39,253 nt of DNA, taken from positions 1 through 39,253 of IMG/VR virus record IMGVR_UViG_3300011116_001034; one strand, 5' to 3'. Both the position numbers and the translations under genes were made by a program. The notes beneath the pieces were generated by a model. It made no database searches. It was not told the DNA's origin and saw nothing but the letters and a program-made list of their open reading frames with translations. Of the stretch, positions 1 to 10,724 are shown piece after piece. Each line of letters opens with the position of its first letter. Within the stretch, counting starts at the first letter, position 1. Source of the stretch: a virus.

Positions 1-2
1 AT

Positions 3-302
3 GTAAACAATTCAAGTTTTACATCCGATGGCACGCATAGGGTATATGATCATCTCACACATTTCGTAGACACCTATAGGCAAAAAACGGGTATGAGTCC
101 AATGATTCAATACGATACCACGCATCCCAAGAAGGATCGTATATACCAAATGGCTGCCAAAAGATTGAATATCAAGGCGGAGAATGCAACAGGATGGGTT
201 GATCCTGATCTAGAGAGAAGTAGACCGCGTGAGAGAAGAAGAACGCACGACGAGGAACCGTGGATAGATCCGCCTCATCGTGGAGTGCATCAGAGGCCGT
301 GA
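3..302 (+). CDS. Hypothetical phage protein, 5' end outside the window
   Basis: The frame is open from the first bases of the window to the TGA at 300-302, giving at least 99 residues. The in-frame ATG at 93 lacks a clear ribosome binding site, so I read this as the C-terminal part of a longer gene. The visible protein is hydrophilic and charged. It has a C-terminal Arg/Glu/Asp-rich stretch (residues ERSRPRERRRTHDEE) and ends in a Pro/His-rich tail. I recognise no family. The next gene starts 41 bases downstream in the same direction. Confidence 0.6.
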   Translation, partial: VNNSSFTSDGTHRVYDHLTHFVDTYRQKTGMSPMIQYDTTHPKKDRIYQMAAKRLNIKAENATGWVDPDLERSRPRERRRTHDEEPWIDPPHRGVHQRP

Positions 303-343
303 GGAACAGACACAATTCATAGATAATACATCAGGAGAACCAC

Positions 344-871
344 ATGAGAAACTGGACACAACTACGCGAAACATACAAAGCAATACTAGAAGCAGAATTG
401 CTCAAGGGTAGAGCTGCAATACTGAGACAAGCTGAGCTAGCGAAACAAGGAAAACCACTTGCCGTCAAGACTCTGGCTCGTGACGAGAATCCGGGGCCAA
501 TGAGCAAATCCCAAGTACCCGGAATCAATGCCGCTCTACCAATAGAAGATCCAAAACAAATTCCTCCAGTATTACGCCTAGACGCAAAACAAGTAGCAAG
601 AGAAAAACTTCGTTGGGGTGGTGCTAGAGGTCGCGGAGGAGCGCAATATGGTGCAGTGGAAGAGCCATATGATATCGATAATATTGGTTTTAAAGATGCT
701 CAAATACAACCAACATCAACAAGACATCAGAGGGATGTAGGTATGCAGATTGGTTCCGGTGGTACATTATCACTAAGACCAAATCCACACTTTGATGAGC
801 CGATGAATAGGAAATCATCAGTCAAGATTCAAAGAGATCGCTTACAACATAGATTCCATAGCAACAGCTAA
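344..871 (+). CDS. Basic hypothetical protein, possibly virion-associated
   Basis: The gene encodes 175 residues. The ATG is preceded by a good Shine-Dalgarno (CAGGAGAACCAC then ATG). The N-terminus MRNWTQLRETYKAILEAE is amphipathic and contains an I-L-E tripeptide, which would fit the T4 prohead protease rule (I/L)-x-E. It resembles the MKTF-type leaders at 5131-7149 only loosely. The middle is Pro/Gln-rich and contains a Gly/Arg run (GGARGRGGAQYG). The C-terminus is strongly basic. No enzyme motif is visible. A capsid-internal or DNA-binding role is a guess from charge alone. Confidence 0.6.
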   Translation: MRNWTQLRETYKAILEAELLKGRAAILRQAELAKQGKPLAVKTLARDENPGPMSKSQVPGINAALPIEDPKQIPPVLRLDAKQVAREKLRWGGARGRGGAQYGAVEEPYDIDNIGFKDAQIQPTSTRHQRDVGMQIGSGGTLSLRPNPHFDEPMNRKSSVKIQRDRLQHRFHSNS

Positions 872-901
872 CTTCAGTAGTACTGTTGAGTGAACCGTGA
901 G

Positions 902-950
902 CAGGGGTGTAGAGAGGGTGTGGAGTGGGGGAAGGTGGGGTAGAGTGGGA
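902..950 (+). other. G-run tract upstream of a candidate structured RNA
   Basis: On the plus strand this stretch is almost free of C and carries five runs of three to five G separated by short A/T/G spacers (GGGG, GGG, GGGGG, GGGG, GGG). Such spacing could form a G-quadruplex. It lies in the 365-base gap between the gene ending at 871 and the start at 1237. No convincing ribosome binding site or gene is seen here. Confidence 0.4.
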
Positions 951-1081
951 AAGGCGCCATTTGTGTGCCATTTTGGGGGGTATCGGGGTGGCGCAGGCGG
1001 TGCGGAGCAAAAGGGTGGCGGGTAAGTGGCACTTAGCCCGTGCCAGAGACTTCCCCCGCCTCTGCGCCAACCCATTTCCCA
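946..1081 (+). ncRNA. Candidate structured non-coding RNA
   Basis: Three nested helices can be drawn by hand. The outer one is TGGGAAA (946-952) with TTTCCCA (1075-1081). The middle one is GGG/TGGCGCAG (about 986-996) with CTGCGCCAACCC (1062-1073), continued by GCGG with CCGC. The inner hairpin is GGGTAAG (1020-1026) with CTTAGCCC (1032-1039) and a one-base bulge. The region is GC-rich and has no believable reading frame. I do not recognise an RNA family. Whether it is transcribed is unknown; it could be the 5' leader of the next gene or an origin-like structure. Confidence 0.4.
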
Positions 1082-1138
1082 ACGGCATAACCACACGCAC
1101 AACGCCGTGCCGTGCCTATAAATCTAGGGATATTTCTC

Positions 1139-1167
1139 TTGCGTCCGATAACCTTATGTGTTATACT
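1139..1167 (+). promoter_or_regulatory. Candidate sigma70-type promoter
   Basis: TTGCGT (1139-1144) and TATACT (1162-1167) are separated by 17 bases. Transcription would start at about 1174. That base is an ATG, but the better start for the acidic gene is at 1237, leaving a leader of about 63 nt. Confidence 0.5.
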
Positions 1168-1236
1168 TTGACCATGATCGCAGCGAATAGCACCGTTGAT
1201 GACTTTGACGCAACCCTTACCTGTGAGGAGTACTAC

Positions 1237-1497
1237 ATGGAACGCGAGTGGGAGGACGAGGACGACGAGCTCGAGGATGACGAGGATGAGCTCGAGGACG
1301 ATGAAGACGAGGATGAAGACGACTCAGACGATGACGATGACGATGACGACTACGAGGACGATGATGGGTTTGACGATGACGATGAGTGGGAAGACATTGA
1401 AGATGATGTCACCGACTGCTTCGACTGTGATGGGACTGTGAGTGAAAACGGCTTTGCTCAACTGTTCGACATGGAACGCCGTGGATATTTCGCCTAA
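1237..1497 (+). CDS. Extremely acidic small protein (candidate DNA mimic)
   Basis: The gene encodes 86 residues. The start at 1237 is chosen because GAGGAG lies 6 bases upstream; an in-frame ATG at 1174 has no ribosome binding site. Roughly the first 60 residues are almost all Asp and Glu, in repeats of the DDELEDDEDE kind and one run of eight Asp. The C-terminal 25 residues are normal and contain the CFDC motif. Phage proteins this acidic include DNA mimics that inhibit restriction enzymes or nucleoid proteins, but low-complexity acid alone does not show that function. GAC/GAG/GAT repeats in the DNA suggest growth by slippage. It is followed 13 bases later by the next gene. Confidence 0.75.
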   Translation: MEREWEDEDDELEDDEDELEDDEDEDEDDSDDDDDDDDYEDDDGFDDDDEWEDIEDDVTDCFDCDGTVSENGFAQLFDMERRGYFA

Positions 1498-1510
1498 TAG
1501 GAGTTACAAA

Positions 1511-1771
1511 ATGAATCTGAAGAAGAATCAAATCAAGTTTCTTGAGTGGATTGCCGCGGAGGGCATTAACCCTACGCAGACCAGTTTCTCTCGCGCCTTT
1601 CTTCGCGTTGTCGCTCGTAAGAACGGTATGGCGTGGGCTCCGGCGTGGATCGTCAAGGACAAGGCACGAAACACCAATCGCGGGTACTACAGCATTCCCG
1701 AGTACGCAACTTACATGGCCTCGTATGTCACGGTGACTACGGGGCCCGCCACGGAAGCTGTTAGCGTTTAA
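1511..1771 (+). CDS. Small hypothetical phage protein
   Basis: The gene encodes 86 residues. The ATG at 1511 follows AGGAG at 1499-1503, so it is preferred to an upstream in-frame ATG at 1442 that overlaps the acidic gene. The N-terminus MNLKKNQIKFLEWIA looks helical. The centre contains a WAPAWIV motif followed by a basic, Tyr-rich segment. I recognise no family. The position suggests an early operon with the acidic gene upstream. Confidence 0.7.
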   Translation: MNLKKNQIKFLEWIAAEGINPTQTSFSRAFLRVVARKNGMAWAPAWIVKDKARNTNRGYYSIPEYATYMASYVTVTTGPATEAVSV

Positions 1772-1775
1772 AGAC

Positions 1776-1806
1776 CCATCTTCTCCCCTGAGTGGGGGGA
1801 GAGGTG
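1776..1806 (+). other. GC-rich hairpin between two genes
   Basis: The inner stem TCTCCCC pairs with GGGGAGA, extended outward by CCA with TGG and a bulge. There is no U-tract after it, so it is not a standard terminator. It could be an mRNA stability or processing element ahead of the gene at 1852. Confidence 0.4.
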
Positions 1807-1851
1807 GCAAAGCACTTTCTCCCCTCACTCGCTTTCAGAAAGACACGAACA

Positions 1852-2250
1852 ATGGCACGACCCAACACAATCGAAGTACTAATCAACGAAGGACGAGGAA
1901 CGCGCCTTTGGAAGTGGCATCCTAACCTCACGGAGCATGAGTTTCCGCTGTGGTGGGATTCGATGAAGGATGCTGACTTCATCAAGTTCTACTTCAACAT
2001 TCGTTCGCTGCCGGGCAAGGTGACGCCCTACAAGGCCATGACGAATGGCCGCAGCGACGCGCAGCGTATGCACGGAGATCCCTTGCACTACAGGCCGTTT
2101 TATTACTGCCATTTCAACGAGATGGACGATTCGTTCATCGCTATCGGTGAAAACACGCTGCGATACCGTCAGAGCGCCCGCCGAGATTGGCGAGAGCACT
2201 GGCGCGATTGGGTGATGAAGCGCGAACTGTCCCGACCAGTCGCATTCTAA
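1852..2250 (+). CDS. Hypothetical phage protein, Trp-rich
   Basis: The gene encodes 132 residues. The start at 1852 (MARPNTIEVLI) is taken because it follows an AGAAAGA sequence like the leaders of the next genes in this island. The protein is rich in Trp, Arg and His: WKWHP, FPLWWDSM and REHWRDWVMKRE. It has no signal peptide or membrane segment. I recognise no family. A strong terminator follows 25 bases after the stop, so this looks like the last gene of the unit beginning near 1139. Confidence 0.7.
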   Translation: MARPNTIEVLINEGRGTRLWKWHPNLTEHEFPLWWDSMKDADFIKFYFNIRSLPGKVTPYKAMTNGRSDAQRMHGDPLHYRPFYYCHFNEMDDSFIAIGENTLRYRQSARRDWREHWRDWVMKRELSRPVAF

Positions 2251-2275
2251 CGAATAGCGATTGGCACAGCAAATG

Positions 2276-2314
2276 CCCCTGCATTGCATAAAAGCAATGC
2301 GGGGGTATTTTTTT
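2276..2314 (+). terminator. Intrinsic terminator
   Basis: CCCCTGCATTGC pairs over 12 base pairs (one G-U) with GCAATGCGGGGG around a six-base loop, followed by TATTTTTTT. It ends the first early unit. Confidence 0.85.
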
Positions 2315-2512
2315 AGCAATGAATAGGCATATGTTTAGCAATGCACAACAATGCTATGCAATAGGCGCACAGAGTCCGATAACTAAACTATCATCGTCCC
2401 ATAACGGCACTATCATCAGGTGCCAATAATACCCTGCGCCGCAGCGTAGGGAAAGACTGTCCAATAATAACTTTATTTCTGATTGTATGGGTTTTGTACG
2501 GGTTCTCGAGCT

Positions 2513-2532
2513 CCCCTAGAATAACAGGGTTT
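2513..2532 (+). repeat. Operator-like repeat, copy 1
   Basis: CCCCTAGAATAACAGGGTTT occurs here and identically at 2554-2573. The start-to-start distance is 41 bases, close to four helical turns. The core CCCT-N8-AGGG is an inverted repeat, as expected for a dimeric repressor or activator site. Confidence 0.65.
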
Positions 2533-2553
2533 TCTGCGATAGGCGCCCAAATA

Positions 2554-2573
2554 CCCCTAGAATAACAGGGTTT
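2554..2573 (+). repeat. Operator-like repeat, copy 2, touching the -35 box
   Basis: This is the second identical 20-base copy. Its 3' end overlaps the candidate -35 box TTGCAG at 2572-2577, so a bound protein would compete with or contact RNA polymerase. Confidence 0.65.
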
Positions 2574-2600
2574 GCAGCGTTTGACCCCTTCGGGTATACT
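2572..2600 (+). promoter_or_regulatory. Candidate sigma70-type promoter, possibly giving a leaderless mRNA
   Basis: TTGCAG (2572-2577), 17 bases, TATACT (2595-2600). Seven bases separate the -10 box from the ATG at 2608, so transcription would start at or beside the start codon. There is no Shine-Dalgarno before that ATG. Confidence 0.55.
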
Positions 2601-2607
2601 GATATCC

Positions 2608-3243
2608 ATGAGCAAGACTCCTTTCAACCCTCGTTTCGTTCCCGTTCGCACCATCACGCACCCGGTCATGGGTCGCATCGATTGCTATGTGATTCGTCGT
2701 CGCCCGAAGTCTGATGGAATGGGCGCGCAGGCCACTTTCTTCCGCAACAACGCTCGCCCGAATATGAAGGGCGAGTACGGAATCAAGTTGTTCCCGACCC
2801 CCGCGGAAGCGTTCGCCGCGTATCAGCGTCAGAAGATCGCTGCCGATGCGGGACTCGCTCCGCCGGTGCGCCGCATGGTGCAGGTTCTCATGCGTGGCCA
2901 GTGCTGGTGCGACAATGTTGATTGCAAGCGTAAGGGAATGAAGTTTTGGTATGGGTATCAGACTTGCCTCGCTTACGGTATCGGAAAGATTGAAGTCCCT
3001 ACCATCGCTGAGTCCGACCGCAACCCCAAGTACATCGAAGAGAACGGAGTTCGTACTCTCTTCAAGGCGATCATTCGCATCAGCATTCAGGGAACGCAGA
3101 AGGATTTCGCTCCGCTCGGAAAGACTCACGGTAAGCGTGCGCCGCGTATGGCGAACGATCTCCATCAGGATAACCTCGGGTTCTGGCGCAAGCGGCCCGT
3201 CGTGATCGACTTCGGTTCGCACCTCGTTGGTGAATGCGCCTAA
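2608..3243 (+). CDS. Compact protein-kinase-fold-like protein
   Basis: The gene encodes 211 residues. Kinase-type motifs appear in the right order. YGIKLF with Lys60 fits the strand carrying the ATP-anchoring lysine. Glu67 in the following helix could be its salt-bridge partner. NDLHQDN with Asp184 and Asn189 matches the catalytic loop D-L-H-x-x-N of aminoglycoside-phosphotransferase-like kinases. VIDFG with Asp201 fits the DFG metal-binding motif. The His of the usual H-x-D is replaced (A-N-D), there is no clear Gly-rich loop, and the protein ends 10 residues after DFG, so it is a minimal or degenerate kinase with no activation or substrate lobe. WCDNVDC adds two nearby cysteines. It is early, first after the repeated operator sites, and followed 22 bases later by the GP88-type gene. 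The fold is an inference from motifs, and activity is uncertain. Confidence 0.6.
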   Translation: MSKTPFNPRFVPVRTITHPVMGRIDCYVIRRRPKSDGMGAQATFFRNNARPNMKGEYGIKLFPTPAEAFAAYQRQKIAADAGLAPPVRRMVQVLMRGQCWCDNVDCKRKGMKFWYGYQTCLAYGIGKIEVPTIAESDRNPKYIEENGVRTLFKAIIRISIQGTQKDFAPLGKTHGKRAPRMANDLHQDNLGFWRKRPVVIDFGSHLVGECA

Positions 3244-3265
3244 TCTCCTCTCAGAAAGAAACACA

Positions 3266-4024
3266 ATGACTACCTACTCTCTCGCCGTTCTCAACAATCC
3301 CGCACCCAAGACTCACTCGGCTACTTCGGATCTCCCGTATGCCGCAGGCCCCGATGAGGTCTACAATGGGGTGCTGTACTTGCACAACAACTGCACTTGG
3401 AAGCAACTCGAAGTGCTGACTGGCGGACTCTCTGCGCCCTCGAAGATGCCGTGCCATTCGTTCAGCATCAGCGCGAAGCGGTGCAATGTGGGTTCCAAGT
3501 TGCGTAAGGTTGCCGGTTCGACCTGCAACAAGTGCTACGCGCTGAAGGGTCGCTATGTGTTTCCGAATGTGGAGCGCGCCATGGAGCGCCGACTCGCCGC
3601 GATGCACTCCTCGCCTAATCAGTGGGCCGCTGCAATCGTCGCTAGCATTCGTAAGAAGGGCGAAACGCACTTTCGCTGGCACGATAGCGGAGACTTGCAG
3701 GGAATGAATCACCTGATGACTCTCGTCGTCATCGCCGAAGAAATGCCGGAAGTGAAGTTCTGGCTTCCGACTCGTGAGTACGCTCTCGTGCGTGATTACC
3801 TTCGGGAATACCATCGCTTTCCCTCCAACCTCACGGTGCGCGTGAGTGCGCCGATGATTGGTGCAGTCGCAAGCGAATGGGAGCATAGCAGCAGCGTCGA
3901 TGCTGCGCCTACTCCTCTCACCGCATGGGTCGATTGCCCTGCATCGAAGCAAGGAAACAAGTGCATGGATTGCCGCGCTTGTTGGGATCAGGATGTCGAA
4001 GTCGTCAACTACAAGAAGCACTAA
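3266..4024 (+). CDS. GP88-family conserved phage protein, cysteine-rich
   Basis: The gene encodes 252 residues. The start MTTYSLAV is preceded by CAGAAAGAAACACA. The order of motifs matches the phage 'gene product 88' family as I remember it: PCHSFSISAKRC, then GSTCNKCYALKGRY, then FRWHDSGDLQ, FWLPTREY, NLTVRVS, and a final CPASKQGNKCMDCRACW. The nine or so cysteines in C-x2-C style pairs suggest a metal or Fe-S site. The molecular function of the family is unknown to me. Next to the kinase-like gene it forms an early unit. Confidence 0.75.
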   Translation: MTTYSLAVLNNPAPKTHSATSDLPYAAGPDEVYNGVLYLHNNCTWKQLEVLTGGLSAPSKMPCHSFSISAKRCNVGSKLRKVAGSTCNKCYALKGRYVFPNVERAMERRLAAMHSSPNQWAAAIVASIRKKGETHFRWHDSGDLQGMNHLMTLVVIAEEMPEVKFWLPTREYALVRDYLREYHRFPSNLTVRVSAPMIGAVASEWEHSSSVDAAPTPLTAWVDCPASKQGNKCMDCRACWDQDVEVVNYKKH

Positions 4025-4061
4025 TCCATTCTCTCACCTCTCACCGAAAGGACTCTCACCT

Positions 4062-4274
4062 ATGAGTAACCCCAACACCAACACGAAGAAGCGCACCACG
4101 CACACCATCGTCGTCCTGCCGGATGGCGAAACTTGGAACACGATCAACGGATGCAGCGTCGTCGTGATCGATGAAGCGCAGTTCGAAGATCTCTGCACGG
4201 ATCGCGTGGACGCGCGCGACTTGATCCCCATCGTGGAGATCGCGCTGCACGACATGACGCCCCCGCAGGACTAA
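4062..4274 (+). CDS. Small hypothetical protein (MSNPNT leader)
   Basis: The gene encodes 70 residues. ATG 4062 is preceded by GAAAGGACTC. The N-terminus MSNPNT and its leader are repeated at the next gene (4294), showing a local duplication of the initiation region. The rest is a mixed beta-type sequence ending in an acidic and Pro-rich tail. No family recognised. Confidence 0.65.
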   Translation: MSNPNTNTKKRTTHTIVVLPDGETWNTINGCSVVVIDEAQFEDLCTDRVDARDLIPIVEIALHDMTPPQD

Positions 4275-4293
4275 ACAGAAAGGACTCAACCAA

Positions 4294-4512
4294 ATGAGCA
4301 ACCCCAACACCGAATCGTTCTACACTCCCCCCACTCTCGCCAACGGTGACCGCGACTGGCGCACCGAAGTCCAGGAGTGGGTGCAGCGTCGCAACAATGG
4401 GCATTGGTCCGGCGCCATTGATCTCAACACCATCGTCGTCATCGACAATCTTCTCGACGCTCTCGACGCTGCGCGCGCCGAACGCGACAACAACCGAAAG
4501 GCAAACTCCTAA
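4294..4512 (+). CDS. Small hypothetical protein (second MSNPNT leader)
   Basis: The gene encodes 72 residues, preceded by GAAAGGACTC as in the upstream gene. After the shared MSNPNT the two proteins diverge. The C-terminal half is an Ala/Asp/Arg-rich helix (DNLLDALDAARAERDNN). Its TAA overlaps the ATG of the next gene (TAATG), indicating translational coupling. No family recognised. Confidence 0.65.
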   Translation: MSNPNTESFYTPPTLANGDRDWRTEVQEWVQRRNNGHWSGAIDLNTIVVIDNLLDALDAARAERDNNRKANS

Positions 4513-4673
4513 TGAACATCAAGACCGAATCGAAGCGTTTCCGTCAGCACAAGTGGCGCGTTCGTAATCAGTGCTGCGTTGTGTGTGGCCGTACTCGCCC
4601 TCAGGGAATGGTGATGATTTGCAACCAGTGCAAGGAAAGGGCCAAGAATGCCGCAACCGAAGTTCGTGCATGA
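4512..4673 (+). CDS. Small zinc-ribbon protein
   Basis: The gene encodes 53 residues. C22-x2-C25 and C37-x2-C40 form a four-cysteine zinc-ribbon pattern (CVVCGR ... ICNQC) after a basic N-terminus rich in Lys, Arg and His. Such tiny ribbons usually bind nucleic acid or RNA polymerase, but nothing more specific can be said. The start overlaps the previous stop by one base. Confidence 0.65.
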   Translation: MNIKTESKRFRQHKWRVRNQCCVVCGRTRPQGMVMICNQCKERAKNAATEVRA

Positions 4674-4788
4674 CGCATTCGTACAGGGACAACGACTCCG
4701 TGCAAAGACATGGGGAAAGAAAACGAAATGTCCCCGCGCTCTTCGACGCAAGATCAAACAAGATCTGCGTAAGTCACTGAGCGTGTAA
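4648..4788 (+). CDS. Very small basic protein
   Basis: The gene encodes 46 residues and overlaps the end of the zinc-ribbon gene by 26 bases in another frame. AAGGAAAGG lies 7-8 bases before its ATG, which is the main reason to believe it. The C-terminal half is very basic (KKTKCPRALRRKIKQDLRK). No family recognised. It could be spurious. Confidence 0.45.
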   Translation: MPQPKFVHDAFVQGQRLRAKTWGKKTKCPRALRRKIKQDLRKSLSV

Positions 4789-4831
4789 CGAGTTCGCTCC
4801 ATCCGTTAGTTCGCTAGCGGTAATGCTCATA

Positions 4832-4867
4832 CCCTCACGATTGCTCACGCAGTCGTGGGGGTTTTTC
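4832..4867 (+). terminator. Intrinsic terminator closing the GC-rich early unit
   Basis: CCCTCACGATTGC pairs with GCAGTCGTGGGGG around TCAC (two G-U pairs), followed by TTTTT. It marks the switch from the GC-richer early island to AT-rich late sequence. Confidence 0.85.
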
Positions 4868-4921
4868 GTTTCCATGTGTCATGTGTCACGCTCTAGACAG
4901 GTCACAAAACAGTGTTTTCAG

Positions 4922-4941
4922 AAAATGGGGTCCCCCCTGTG
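4922..4941 (+). repeat. GGGTCCCCCC repeat, copy 1
   Basis: The element AAAATGGGGTCCCCCCTGTG is matched by AAAATAGGGTCCCCCCTATG at 5011-5030 with three differences. Both lie in the 260-base gene-free stretch between the terminator and the first capsid-targeted gene. Confidence 0.5.
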
Positions 4942-5010
4942 CAGGCGCTAGCGGAATAAAGCCGGCAAAGTCCCAAAAAGACCCCCACCCCTTCTCCAAG
5001 GAATTTTAGA

Positions 5011-5057
5011 AAAATAGGGTCCCCCCTATGATTCCCGGATAAAAAGAATTCTTAGGA
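5011..5057 (+). repeat. Composite repeat: GGGTCCCCCC copy 2 plus AAGAATTCTT copy 1
   Basis: The second GGGTCCCCCC copy runs into TATGATTCCCGG and then the palindrome AAGAATTCTT. The TATGATTCCC...AAGAATTCTT part recurs at 5089-5120, 62 bases further on. Confidence 0.5.
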
Positions 5058-5088
5058 TCCCCCTACCACCCCCCTATTGGGACTCCCA

Positions 5089-5120
5089 TATGATTCCCAC
5101 GGTAAAAGAATTCTTTAGAT
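5089..5120 (+). repeat. AAGAATTCTT repeat, copy 2, next to a late promoter
   Basis: TATGATTCCC is followed by AAAGAATTCTTT, a 12-base palindrome, ending against the GATAAATA box at 5118-5125. The repetition suggests a duplicated regulatory module. Confidence 0.5.
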
Positions 5121-5125
5121 AAATA
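5118..5125 (+). promoter_or_regulatory. T4-type late promoter, near-consensus
   Basis: GATAAATA differs from the T4 late consensus TATAAATA at one base. It lies 5 bases before the ATG at 5131, so the start site would fall on the start codon. Confidence 0.5.
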
Positions 5126-5130
5126 TTCCT

Positions 5131-5349
5131 ATGAAAACATTTAAGCAATACATTAATGAGATCTTTGACGAACGCATAGATTCTCAAATAGCTCAGAAAA
5201 CGGCAAAGCACTCAGAAGAACAATTAAATAAACATAAAAAACTTCTCTCAGTATTAAAAGTAGCAATGACTGATCCAAGAATGTTGAAATTAGATCAGCA
5301 AATAAAAAATCGTCAAAGAACACAAGAACGCCTATCTAAAAGGGCATAA
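5131..5349 (+). CDS. Predicted capsid-targeted internal protein 1
   Basis: The gene encodes 72 residues. The N-terminus MKTFKQYINE closely resembles the T4 internal-protein capsid-targeting sequence MKTYQEFIAE and ends in I-N-E, a prohead protease (I/L)-x-E cleavage motif, so the mature product would begin at residue 11. The remainder is a charged, basic helix (KTAKHSEEQLNKHKKLL). In T4 such proteins are packed in the prohead with the scaffold, trimmed, and injected with DNA. No Shine-Dalgarno is present; a late box sits 5 bases upstream. The effector function is unknown. Confidence 0.7.
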   Translation: MKTFKQYINEIFDERIDSQIAQKTAKHSEEQLNKHKKLLSVLKVAMTDPRMLKLDQQIKNRQRTQERLSKRA

Positions 5350-5406: not shown

Positions 5407-5688
5407 TTAAGAAGTGGGTGGAGAAGGATCCTCAGTTCCAGTAAACGGAAATCTTGATTTGCCCCATATATCTTCAGGCTGTACCAATTCCCCTGTCTCA
5501 GTATTTCTAAATACTGTCCATCTTGGTATACTAGTCGGAACTGGTCTTTTTGGTGATTTTATAGATCCAGCAGGAACGACATTTCTTCCTCCACTATTAG
5601 GCAAAGGTTTCCAAGGTGTAAGAATACCCCCACCCGTTCCTTGATCCCATACACCGGACTCTGAGATATATTGCTTAAATGTTTTCAT
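5407..5688 (-). CDS. Predicted capsid-targeted internal protein 2
   Basis: The gene encodes 93 residues when started at 5688. GAGGAAAAG lies about 11 bases before this ATG, and the protein then begins MKTFKQYISE, the same leader as the gene at 5131 with cleavage motif I-S-E. The first bases of the two genes are nearly identical at DNA level although they lie on opposite strands, which points to copying of the leader module. The mature part is Pro/Gly-rich (PWKPLPNSGGRN, TGTEDPSPPTS) and probably disordered. Function unknown. Confidence 0.7.
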   Translation of the reverse strand: MKTFKQYISESGVWDQGTGGGILTPWKPLPNSGGRNVVPAGSIKSPKRPVPTSIPRWTVFRNTETGELVQPEDIWGKSRFPFTGTEDPSPPTS

Positions 5689-6306: not shown

Positions 6307-7152
6307 ATGAAAACATTCAAGCAATTTCTTGCAGAGGATATGCCGATTCTTCAGGACTATGGAAGAAGAGCACCTGGCTATTATTATTCTAAAAAAATAC
6401 AAGTACCTCGTCATATTGGAAAAATAGGACCATATACCGTATGGCACCATGAAGTACACCCGGAATTAGACTCGGAAGTAGTAAGCGTTCATCATGGAAA
6501 TAAGCAAATTGGTGTAGTTCCCTTTGAGCGTGTAGGCAAATATCGCGGTAAGGAAACGATACAACCAGATAATCCCTCATTTGATCGTGAACACAGAGGC
6601 AAAAAAGCAAAAGTAAGAAATCTTGTTCCAAAGGTATATTCGCTGATGGCAGATAATATTGCTCAGATGGAAAGTGGCGATTACCAAACACCTGGTTCTA
6701 GATCTGTATGGAAGAGATTGTCCAAAATGAGGCCAGTTAATGTTCGTGGTAGTTATTATGGTTCTCGTTCTCATGATGTTACTACTTACGGTCACGAAGA
6801 TCATCCCAATTTTACAATGGACTCCGCTGATTATTCGGACTATAAACGCAGACACGAGTATGCAACTAGAATATCAAAAAAACCAAGATTGAGCAATTTA
6901 GATAAAGGCAATTTGGATGCTGCTCTTTCCCGAATGACCGGAGCCCTGAGAGTAGGCGGAATGAATACTAGACGAATGACATCATTACAACATCTTCCAC
7001 ATCCAAGACAATTCAAGAAAAATTCATTACAAATAAATACGAGTGGAAGATATAATCCAGAAAAACACGATGCACTTGTGTATCATCCCGAAGAAGGCGA
7101 TATGTTTACTTTAATATTGCCATCAAGAGGAAAACGAAAGAAGAAGAAATGA
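6307..7152 (+). CDS. Predicted capsid-targeted internal protein 3
   Basis: The gene encodes 281 residues. The N-terminus MKTFKQFLAE ends in L-A-E, the prohead protease cleavage motif. The body is strongly basic and rich in Tyr, His and Arg, and ends in a Lys run (GKRKKKK). A segment near residues 120-140 (ESGDYQTPGSRSVWKRLSK) resembles a motif I associate with uncharacterised phage proteins, with QTPG and a Trp-x3-Leu spacing. The consensus late promoter just upstream fits packaging into proheads. It overlaps the next gene by 4 bases (ATGA). Enzyme function not recognised. Confidence 0.7.
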   Translation: MKTFKQFLAEDMPILQDYGRRAPGYYYSKKIQVPRHIGKIGPYTVWHHEVHPELDSEVVSVHHGNKQIGVVPFERVGKYRGKETIQPDNPSFDREHRGKKAKVRNLVPKVYSLMADNIAQMESGDYQTPGSRSVWKRLSKMRPVNVRGSYYGSRSHDVTTYGHEDHPNFTMDSADYSDYKRRHEYATRISKKPRLSNLDKGNLDAALSRMTGALRVGGMNTRRMTSLQHLPHPRQFKKNSLQINTSGRYNPEKHDALVYHPEEGDMFTLILPSRGKRKKKK

Positions 7153-8261
7153 AATCATTCATTAAATATTTAAGTGAAGCAAAGTTCGAACCAGGCGGCG
7201 AGGATCTAGGAAAACTGTTTGGTCCTAGAGGTAAGTTCTCTCCCAAAGCAAAAGACGCACCCAAAGAGCGCACAGCATTTCAACGATCCGTTCAGGCAGG
7301 TCGTATGGGTGTTGGTAAGTTCAATGCAATGATTCAGGGTATCTTTGGTCCTTCATCCGGCGATGTGAAAGAACCCGAGACTAAATCGCATGTAGATACT
7401 CTTCGTGATAAACTTCGTGATGCTGGTAAAGAGATGAAGAAGACTGATATTACACCAGATCTTCAAAAGAAGATTGATGCAGTGAAAAATATGCGCGGGG
7501 AAAAGGTCTTCTTCCCGCGTGGGAAGAAGAAAGATGGTAGTGGTAGACAAAAATTTACTACTGTTAGACCAACGCTTCCTTCTTTCTGGAATCATACAAT
7601 TAGAGCAGAACCAGGCAAAAGTACTAATCTACCAAAGTACATTGCTGCTAGTTTAAATGATCATTTGTCTAGACTTCATAATGAGTTCTTCTCGGACAAT
7701 AATAGAACACCAACACAACAAGAAGCAAAAAAGATAGCACATGAAGTTGTTGATGATCATTTTGATGGAGTGCAACGAAGATTAAAGATAGCAAAGTTCA
7801 CCAGTAAATCAGGTAAACCAGTTAAGATTACTCATTTTGAAAGCATGAGAGAAAATCCACATGGATTATATGATCGTGGAAACGATGACTCTGGTTTTAT
7901 GCCAGATGGAAGACATCTTGTTGTCCATTTTGATCATCATCACACGGGTGAATACAACATAAACAACGATCATAGTCATGCACAGCATATTGCAAAACAA
8001 TTGAAAGCAACAACTGGACACGATTGGTTCCATGTTCCCTATAACGAGGGAGCAACGATTCGTGAAAAGAAAGTTGTGTTCCGTGGAAATAAAAGTAGTC
8101 CAATGTTGTTTTCGACCAGCATGACACATCCTGATATTGATCTCGGTGACGGGGATGACATGGACAATAAGGGAGGGGATGGTGGTGGACCAGACGGACC
8201 AGACGAGCCAAGACCAATTGTTCCTAGACGCCCAAGAGGCAGAAAACCTCAGTTAGTCTGA
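7149..8261 (+). CDS. Predicted capsid-targeted internal protein 4
   Basis: The gene encodes 370 residues. The N-terminus MKSFIKYLSE ends in L-S-E, again the (I/L)-x-E motif. The body is basic up to about residue 210. It then has a His/Asp-rich domain (VVHFDHHHTGEYNINNDHSHAQHIAKQL, quoted in part: DHHHTGEYN and DHSHAQHIA) that could bind metal. It ends in an acidic Gly/Asp-rich linker and a basic Arg/Pro tail. The domain order suggests a real effector rather than filler. It is translationally coupled to the upstream gene, and a bidirectional terminator follows 7 bases after the stop. Function unknown. Confidence 0.7.
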   Translation: MKSFIKYLSEAKFEPGGEDLGKLFGPRGKFSPKAKDAPKERTAFQRSVQAGRMGVGKFNAMIQGIFGPSSGDVKEPETKSHVDTLRDKLRDAGKEMKKTDITPDLQKKIDAVKNMRGEKVFFPRGKKKDGSGRQKFTTVRPTLPSFWNHTIRAEPGKSTNLPKYIAASLNDHLSRLHNEFFSDNNRTPTQQEAKKIAHEVVDDHFDGVQRRLKIAKFTSKSGKPVKITHFESMRENPHGLYDRGNDDSGFMPDGRHLVVHFDHHHTGEYNINNDHSHAQHIAKQLKATTGHDWFHVPYNEGATIREKKVVFRGNKSSPMLFSTSMTHPDIDLGDGDDMDNKGGDGGGPDGPDEPRPIVPRRPRGRKPQLV

Positions 8262-9704: not shown

Positions 9705-10724
9705 ATGCATATTGATAATGAAATCAAACTTGATTACAGTGATGTTCTAATTCGCCCAAAGCGTTCAAGACTGAATTCACGAGCTGAAGTTAAAATCACC
9801 CGTGAATTTAGATTTCCACATTCGCCGCAAACATGGACAGGTGTTCCTCTCATGGCGGCAAATATGGATACCACAGGTACAATAGAGATGGCAAATGCAT
9901 TATCACAAATGCAAGCCATCACTTGTCTTCATAAATATATGACTAAGGAAGAAGTACCACTACTAAACGATAAGAATTTTGTTGCTCTTAGTTGTGGTTT
10001 GGATAATCCAAGCATAAATTACCTTCACGGAAATTTTGGTAATGGATTTAAGTTTATTTGTTTGGATGTTGCAAATGGATATTCTGAAAGATTTATTGAT
10101 CTAGTAAAGGACATGAGAAAAATATGGAAGAATGCAATCATAATAGCAGGAAATGTAGTTACTGCCGAAATGACGGAGGCCTTGATTTTGGCTGGGGCGG
10201 ATATAGTGAAGGTTGGTATTGGCCCTGGCAGCGTTTGCACAACAAGGAAGATAACAGGAGTTGGATATCCACAACTATCCGCAGTCATAGAGTGTTCAGA
10301 CGCGGCCCACGGTCTTGGCGGGCATATCGTAGCAGACGGTGGTTGCACTTGTCCCGGAGATGTAGCGAAAGCGTTTGCGGCGGGGGCGGACTTCGTAATG
10401 CTTGGTGGGATGCTAGCTGGCTCCGAAGAATCAGGAGCAGAGAAGTTTACAGACTCATCTGGCGTAGTTAAAAAGAGATTCTATGGTATGTCATCAAAAG
10501 AAGCGATGGATCGGTATTCGGGTGGCGTAGCAAATTATAGAGCGGCAGAGGGTAAGTCTGTAGAAATTGCGTATTCTGGTCCAGTTCATGGTATTGTAGA
10601 TGAAATTTTGGGCGGGATACGATCTGCCTGCACATATGTAGGTGCAAAGAGTATCAAGGATTTACCGAAGTGTACTACCTTTGTGAGAGTGAATCGTCAG
10701 TTAAATACAATTTTTGGAGGTTAA
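9705..10724 (+). CDS. guaC: GMP reductase
   Basis: The gene encodes 339 residues, close to the 347 of the E. coli enzyme, and is highly similar along its whole length from what I remember of that sequence. GuaC converts GMP to IMP and ammonia with NADPH. The motifs are DVLIRPKRS near the start, AANMDT (residues 51-56), [17 protein letters not shown], and the catalytic loop GPGSVCTTR with Cys178. The cofactor and IMP loop follows (SDGGC-like [16 protein letters not shown]), then [14 protein letters not shown] and YRAAEGK. No CBS domains are present, which, with [11 protein letters not shown] and RSACTYVGA, separates it from IMP dehydrogenase. There is no Shine-Dalgarno before the ATG. It would return guanine nucleotides to the IMP/adenine branch during infection. 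Confidence in the family is very high. Confidence 0.95.

Follow-up and report, generated by a model that had tools for sequence, protein, structure and literature searches.

The window analysed here (IMG/VR record IMGVR_UViG_3300011116_001034, 39,253 nucleotides) carries a 211-residue gene whose product, judging from its predicted model, is most likely a cut-down protein of kinase-like fold, referred to below as the mini-kinase. It belongs to a family from IMG/VR phages whose members share the loss of the HxD His and stop abruptly past DFG.

The mini-kinase gene and its family

Comparison of the gene with its homologues in contigs L001 and L043 (81-83% identical) revealed a dN/dS of about 0.2, identifying the ORF as a real gene under purifying selection. 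An overlapping antisense frame is open at 2557-3264 (-); the substitution pattern agrees with the + strand as coding rather than with this frame. The kinase-type motifs pointed out in the earlier note, namely GIKLF with Lys60, Glu67, D184-L-H-Q-D-N189 and D201-F-G, were all confirmed in the ORF at 2608-3243 (+), as were two oddities: the H of H-x-D is replaced, with Ala182 at position -2 from Asp184, and almost nothing follows DFG, the count being 8 residues. The features of the gene are given below, with the evidence in brackets.

2608..3243 (+), mini-kinase gene, 211 aa, residue 1 at 2608 (ORF and homologues; dN/dS as above)
2716..2745 (+), G37-x-G39-A-Q-A..F45-R46, a glycine-containing turn and then a strand, G39 invariant; possible glycine-loop equivalent, by a putative role (alignment)
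2785..2787 (+), Lys60, beta-3 lysine, invariant in 18/18 sequences (alignment and AF2 model)
2800..2847 (+), alpha-C helix, residues 65-80, with invariant Arg74-Gln75 (AF2 model and alignment)
2830..2832 (+), Gln75, probable stand-in for the alpha-C glutamate (spacing from Lys60)
3157..3174 (+), D184-L-H-Q-D-N189, catalytic-loop equivalent (alignment, profile comparison)
3208..3216 (+), D201-F-G motif (alignment, profile comparison)

The mini-kinase protein itself had no match in Pfam, PHROGs, phages or plasmids and did not match the phrog_4301 profile; one close IMG/VR homologue was found. A tblastn search of phages and plasmids returned only Stenotrophomonas phage Bhz59, at E=3, where the matching 151-aa protein is a member of phrog_4301; relatives of that protein occur in 92 phage records, in some cases under a kinase annotation. 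A degenerate DNA scan of viral contigs for D-L-H-x-x-N-x-G-x9-D-F-G yielded 26 stretches, and the D-Y-G version added 14. Contigs L069, L070 and L076 were added by searches independent of the catalytic motif, and blast added a divergent paralogue in L045, in opposite orientation. The latter lies at 4296-5198 (-), beside the kinase gene of that contig, and retains DMHGGN and DFG. Most new matches of an N-terminal DNA pattern scan were unrelated frames and were set aside.

Pfam gave no kinase family at E<=1, including PF00069, RIO1 and APH/choline kinase PF01636, for any of 17 members, and NCBIfam and PADLOC scans gave no meaningful match; matches to DUF6485 and GajB were discarded as weak. The phrog_4301 profile matched 10 of 17 homologues weakly, with a best E of 0.0026. 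The family has no convincing match to curated Pfam, NCBIfam, PADLOC or PHROG profiles. Pattern scans of genome contigs, made with limited patterns, revealed no cellular relatives, and tblastn with the members in L042 and L048 gave no isolate relative.

In the 18-sequence alignment, the invariant residues were found to be G39, K60, R74, Q75, Y117, D184, L185, H186, N189, D201, F202 and G203. Because many members had been fetched with the catalytic motif, part of the invariance in the catalytic-loop and DFG columns follows from the selection itself; the N-lobe columns are unaffected by this bias, and D..N..DFG is also kept in the members obtained without the motif (L001, L069, L070, L076 and the L045 paralogue). 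The proposed set of kinase motifs therefore largely holds, with Lys60, Asp184, Asn189 and Asp201-Phe-Gly kept throughout; Glu67 is the exception, a wrong assignment given that the position is E in only 11/18 sequences. Gln75 fits the alpha-C partner better. It is the invariant alpha-C residue (18/18) and stands 15 residues past Lys60, a typical Lys-to-alpha-C-Glu spacing (13 residues in Bhz59), which makes it the likely partner of Lys60. Judged from this spacing, the usual Lys-Glu pair is probably replaced by Lys-Gln.

Position 182 is occupied by A, G, V, R, S or C in the alignment and never by His. Among phage ORFs with D-L-H-x-x-N-x-G-x9-D-[FY]-G, 41 of 41 have 2-46 residues after the motif. 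When compared with a canonical protein kinase, the family has the beta3 Lys, the catalytic Asp, the Asn and the DFG Asp, and is without the activation segment, APE and helices alpha-F to alpha-I. The signature near the C-terminus offers a simple way to detect phage mini-kinases.

Even shorter kinase-like ORFs, both annotated as hypothetical, were seen in Escherichia phage JS10 (L016 490-858, 122 aa, ending DYGSK) and Shigella phage Moonfish (L015 490-867, 125 aa, ending DYGV). A 498-aa phage protein in L049 (9157-10650) and L062 has DLHxxNxGx9DYG ending at its C-terminus.

Predicted fold and comparison with known kinases

Structure prediction and a fold search, the check proposed in the earlier note, gave the expected type of fold. 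AF2 on the 18-sequence alignment produced a confident model (pLDDT 87.6, pTM 0.86), the pLDDT being 31 when two sequences only were supplied, and the order of its elements (strands, alpha-C at 65-80, strands, helix, catalytic loop, hairpin) is kinase-typical. Kinase-like folds, including pseudokinases and APH, made up 50/50 listed Foldseek PDB matches and 50/50 listed VIA-align matches, with MK2, PKR, RIO2, PRPK, OspG, HopBF1, MLKL and APH(2'') among those listed. The best Foldseek PDB match had an E of 3.5e-3, with TM-scores of about 0.4 and a high rmsd; VIA Z values were 7-9, the top match reaching 8.7 over 134 residues at 3.9 Å, a range termed common by VIA itself. As these scores are modest, the strength of the case for a kinase fold lies in the unanimity of the matches together with the motifs.

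Model residue 211 (or 210) was aligned by VIA 8-9 residues past the DFG Asp of CK1, PKR, MK2 and RIO2, when read with the literature residue numbers of this Asp in those proteins; Asp201 is thereby placed at the DFG Asp within about one residue. Sequence-profile matches in the PDB were to kinase domains only, KSR2 with alignment A2 and TGFBR2 with alignment A5, and were individually insignificant. The BFVD matches listed include annotated phage and giant-virus kinases, a Lacusarx phage protein and an S-CBWM1 RIO-like kinase. The model, the kinase-like matches and the conserved Lys, Asp, Asn and Asp support the claim that the protein is a compact kinase or pseudokinase of unusual type; the end after DFG, by contrast, turned out not to be peculiar to this protein, being the norm in this and other phage mini-kinase families.

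The nearest known proteins are those of phrog_4301, which include Pseudomonas phage YuA gp39, an AN14 'serine/threonine-protein kinase', a Pan1 'cyclin-dependent kinase-like 5' and the Bhz59 protein. Like the mini-kinase, they are short, have the beta3 Lys and D-[LTVI]-[KH]-x-x-N-x-G with an equal 10-residue spacing to D-[FY], lack the HxD His and mostly end soon after DYG/D-[FY], as the mini-kinase does after DFG. The N-lobe sequence of the mini-kinase family differs from theirs, and the stretch leading up to its catalytic loop is longer and variable; phrog_4301 proteins have a G-x-G-x-x-R loop, and their alpha-C residue is a true Glu (E61 in Bhz59), against Gln in the family. Comparison of the two by hhalign gave a probability of 94.9, and of 95.7 when the motif-unbiased subset was used; none of 60 shuffles exceeded 1.9. 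The similarity is limited to the C-terminal 35-64 residues, comprising the catalytic block and the end after D-[FY]-G, and the N-lobes alone gave no hhalign match. A comparison of alignments A4 and A6 was not counted as evidence, both being partly selected by the identical motif.

RIO2, PRPK/Bud32 and APH(2'') are structural matches of the model, and the D-L-H-x-x-N of the mini-kinase resembles the HGDLHxxN motif of APH/choline kinases; unlike these proteins, the mini-kinase has no C-terminal helical subdomain, and the family has no Pfam RIO1 or APH match. OspG and HopBF1, minimal effector kinases of bacteria (VIA Z 7.7 and 7.1), are likewise small and without the usual C-lobe, and HopBF1 has been described as a minimal, atypical kinase fold (PMC9950578). 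They differ in acting in eukaryotic cells; no sequence relation to the mini-kinase, with its 8 residues past DFG, was found.

Virion-associated kinase-like proteins have been reported from the cyanophages S-CRM01, S-TIM5, S-CBWM1 and S-CREM2, which are myoviruses (PMC10665884). While those kinases were found in virions, the mini-kinase, as read here from sequence, shows no evidence of packaging; a sequence match to them was not obtained, the phage collection yielding only Bhz59. Kinase-like phage proteins were thus already known, both as phrog_4301 annotations and from cyanophage virions, and the mini-kinase is accordingly a new variant, with a probable Lys-Gln pair, an N-lobe of its own and an extreme C-lobe truncation. 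No description of phage kinases that end at DFG was found in the literature searched.

Expression signals and phage context

The following features surround the mini-kinase gene.

1852..2250 (+), upstream 132-aa gene, function not assigned, recurring beside the kinase gene (no Pfam or PHROG match)
2271..2310 (+), intrinsic terminator between the upstream gene and the kinase gene (-29 kcal/mol, z -6.6)
2513..2573 (+), 20-bp exact direct repeat CCCCTAGAATAACAGGGTTT, copies 2513-2532 and 2554-2573, upstream of the promoter (sequence)
2571..2600 (+), sigma70-like promoter TTTGCA-18-TATACT, -10 ending 7 nt before ATG, position conserved in homologous loci (sequence)
3266..4024 (+), GP88 gene (PF17338) downstream, which related contigs often carry close to the kinase gene (Pfam profile)

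A -10-like hexamer, read by eye, lies 6-9 nt before the start in 9 of 15 homologous loci, and the corresponding promoter of L076 has TTGACA and TACAAT. With the -10 only 7 nt from the ATG, the kinase mRNA is probably leaderless. The conserved sigma70-like promoter suggests transcription by host RNA polymerase and lends indirect support to expression that is probably early. The core of the direct repeat is conserved in L001 and partly in L043.

The contig, derived from environmental DNA, is T4-like: it has gp32, and its baseplate protein is closest to those of cyanophages (about 33-37% identity). A gp32 gene is present in 9 of 19 kinase-bearing contigs, the window included; the others may be fragments or other phages. 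G+C is about 46-57% over positions 1-5000 of the window and 35-42% in the next 7 kb. A chimeric contig was ruled out as its source by the identical gene order in L001 and L064; since L001 shares this order, the GC-rich stretch is natural, and it is perhaps a horizontally acquired module.

Four ORFs of the window have starts of the form MK[TS]F..[YF][IL].E, at 5131-5349 (+), 5407-5688 (-), 6307-7152 (+) and 7149-8261 (+), reading MKTFKQYINE-, MKTFKQYISE-, MKTFKQFLAE- and MKSFIKYLSE-, in this order; similar starts occur in L063, L064, L067, L068 and L076. These starts resemble the T4 capsid-targeting sequence or propeptide, and the four products are candidates for internal head proteins that enter the host by injection. 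The mini-kinase has no start of this type and so gives no sign of its own packaging. An ORF at 9705-10724 (+) looks, by eye only, like an IMP dehydrogenase/GMP reductase.

Proposed function

The reading we favour, and hold to be moderately probable, is that of a stand-alone mini-kinase acting as an ATP-Mg-dependent phosphotransferase without an activation segment or helices alpha-F to alpha-I. From the gene, its family, the conserved residues and the confidently predicted fold, we infer the following with regard to ATP binding, catalysis, timing and target. The protein would consist of an N-lobe and, of a C-lobe, just the portion with the catalytic loop, beta7-beta8 and DFG. It would be produced intracellularly, a host-sigma70-like promoter of its own driving expression that is probably early, and would probably bind ATP-Mg through Lys60, Asn189 and Asp201; Asp184 would serve as the catalytic base, and phosphate would be passed to a host or phage target. 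With no activation segment to turn it off, and lacking a canonical substrate platform, it would probably rely on the variable insert of the family (residues ~120-180) or on a partner protein to hold the target.

With the alpha-C Glu and the HxD His absent, and without helices alpha-F to alpha-I, kinase activity cannot be assumed. The main rival, which we consider unlikely, is a pseudokinase or nucleotide sensor, a kinase fold that may bind ATP and that blocks or scaffolds a host protein with no phosphotransfer. The Gln in place of the alpha-C Glu in 18/18 sequences, the HxD His that is never present, the missing activation segment and alpha-F, and the presence of two pseudokinases, KSR2 and MLKL, among the matches are in line with it. 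Yet Lys60, Asp184, Asn189 and Asp201 are invariant even in divergent members, whereas pseudokinases usually lose one of these, and other kinases can do without the HxD His.

Still less probable is a split kinase, the missing C-lobe or substrate platform of which would come from a partner, for example the 132-aa protein encoded next to it. The 132-aa gene adjoins the kinase gene in the window, L001, L043, L047 and L076 and is the more constrained of the two (98% protein identity and dN/dS of about 0.03 in L001), but only 6 of 19 kinase contigs, which are fragments, were found to carry it, and in G007 it is distant from the kinase gene; moreover, its product has no detectable kinase resemblance, and the strong terminator lies between the two genes. 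That the protein has no kinase fold at all, its motifs being coincidental in a phage protein of other function, is very improbable: the modest fold scores and the want of anything significant in Pfam, NCBIfam and PADLOC are outweighed by the confident model with its uniformly kinase-like listed matches, by the four catalytic residues conserved in order, and by a single occurrence of the strict pattern D[LIVM][HK]xxNxGx9D[FY]G in 200,000 shuffles of the protein.

In textbook kinases, the segment past DFG, including alpha-F, is needed to build the active site and to hold substrates. Phage families that consistently end right past DFG with all catalytic residues kept are a test of the minimal size of a kinase. 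As a tentative proposal, which we regard as possible rather than probable, phages would hold a large class of kinases, mostly undescribed so far, that are active although they have neither the activation segment nor the alpha-F scaffold regarded as essential to kinase catalysis, the mini-kinase family moreover using Lys-Gln for Lys-Glu and perhaps needing a phage or host partner or carrying out another transfer, e.g., AMPylation. The host-takeover role suggested in the earlier note is conjecture; mini-kinases are nonetheless unannotated candidates for host-takeover or counter-defence enzymes. The mini-kinase is one of a widespread phage set of cut-down kinases, which may phosphorylate some target during infection.
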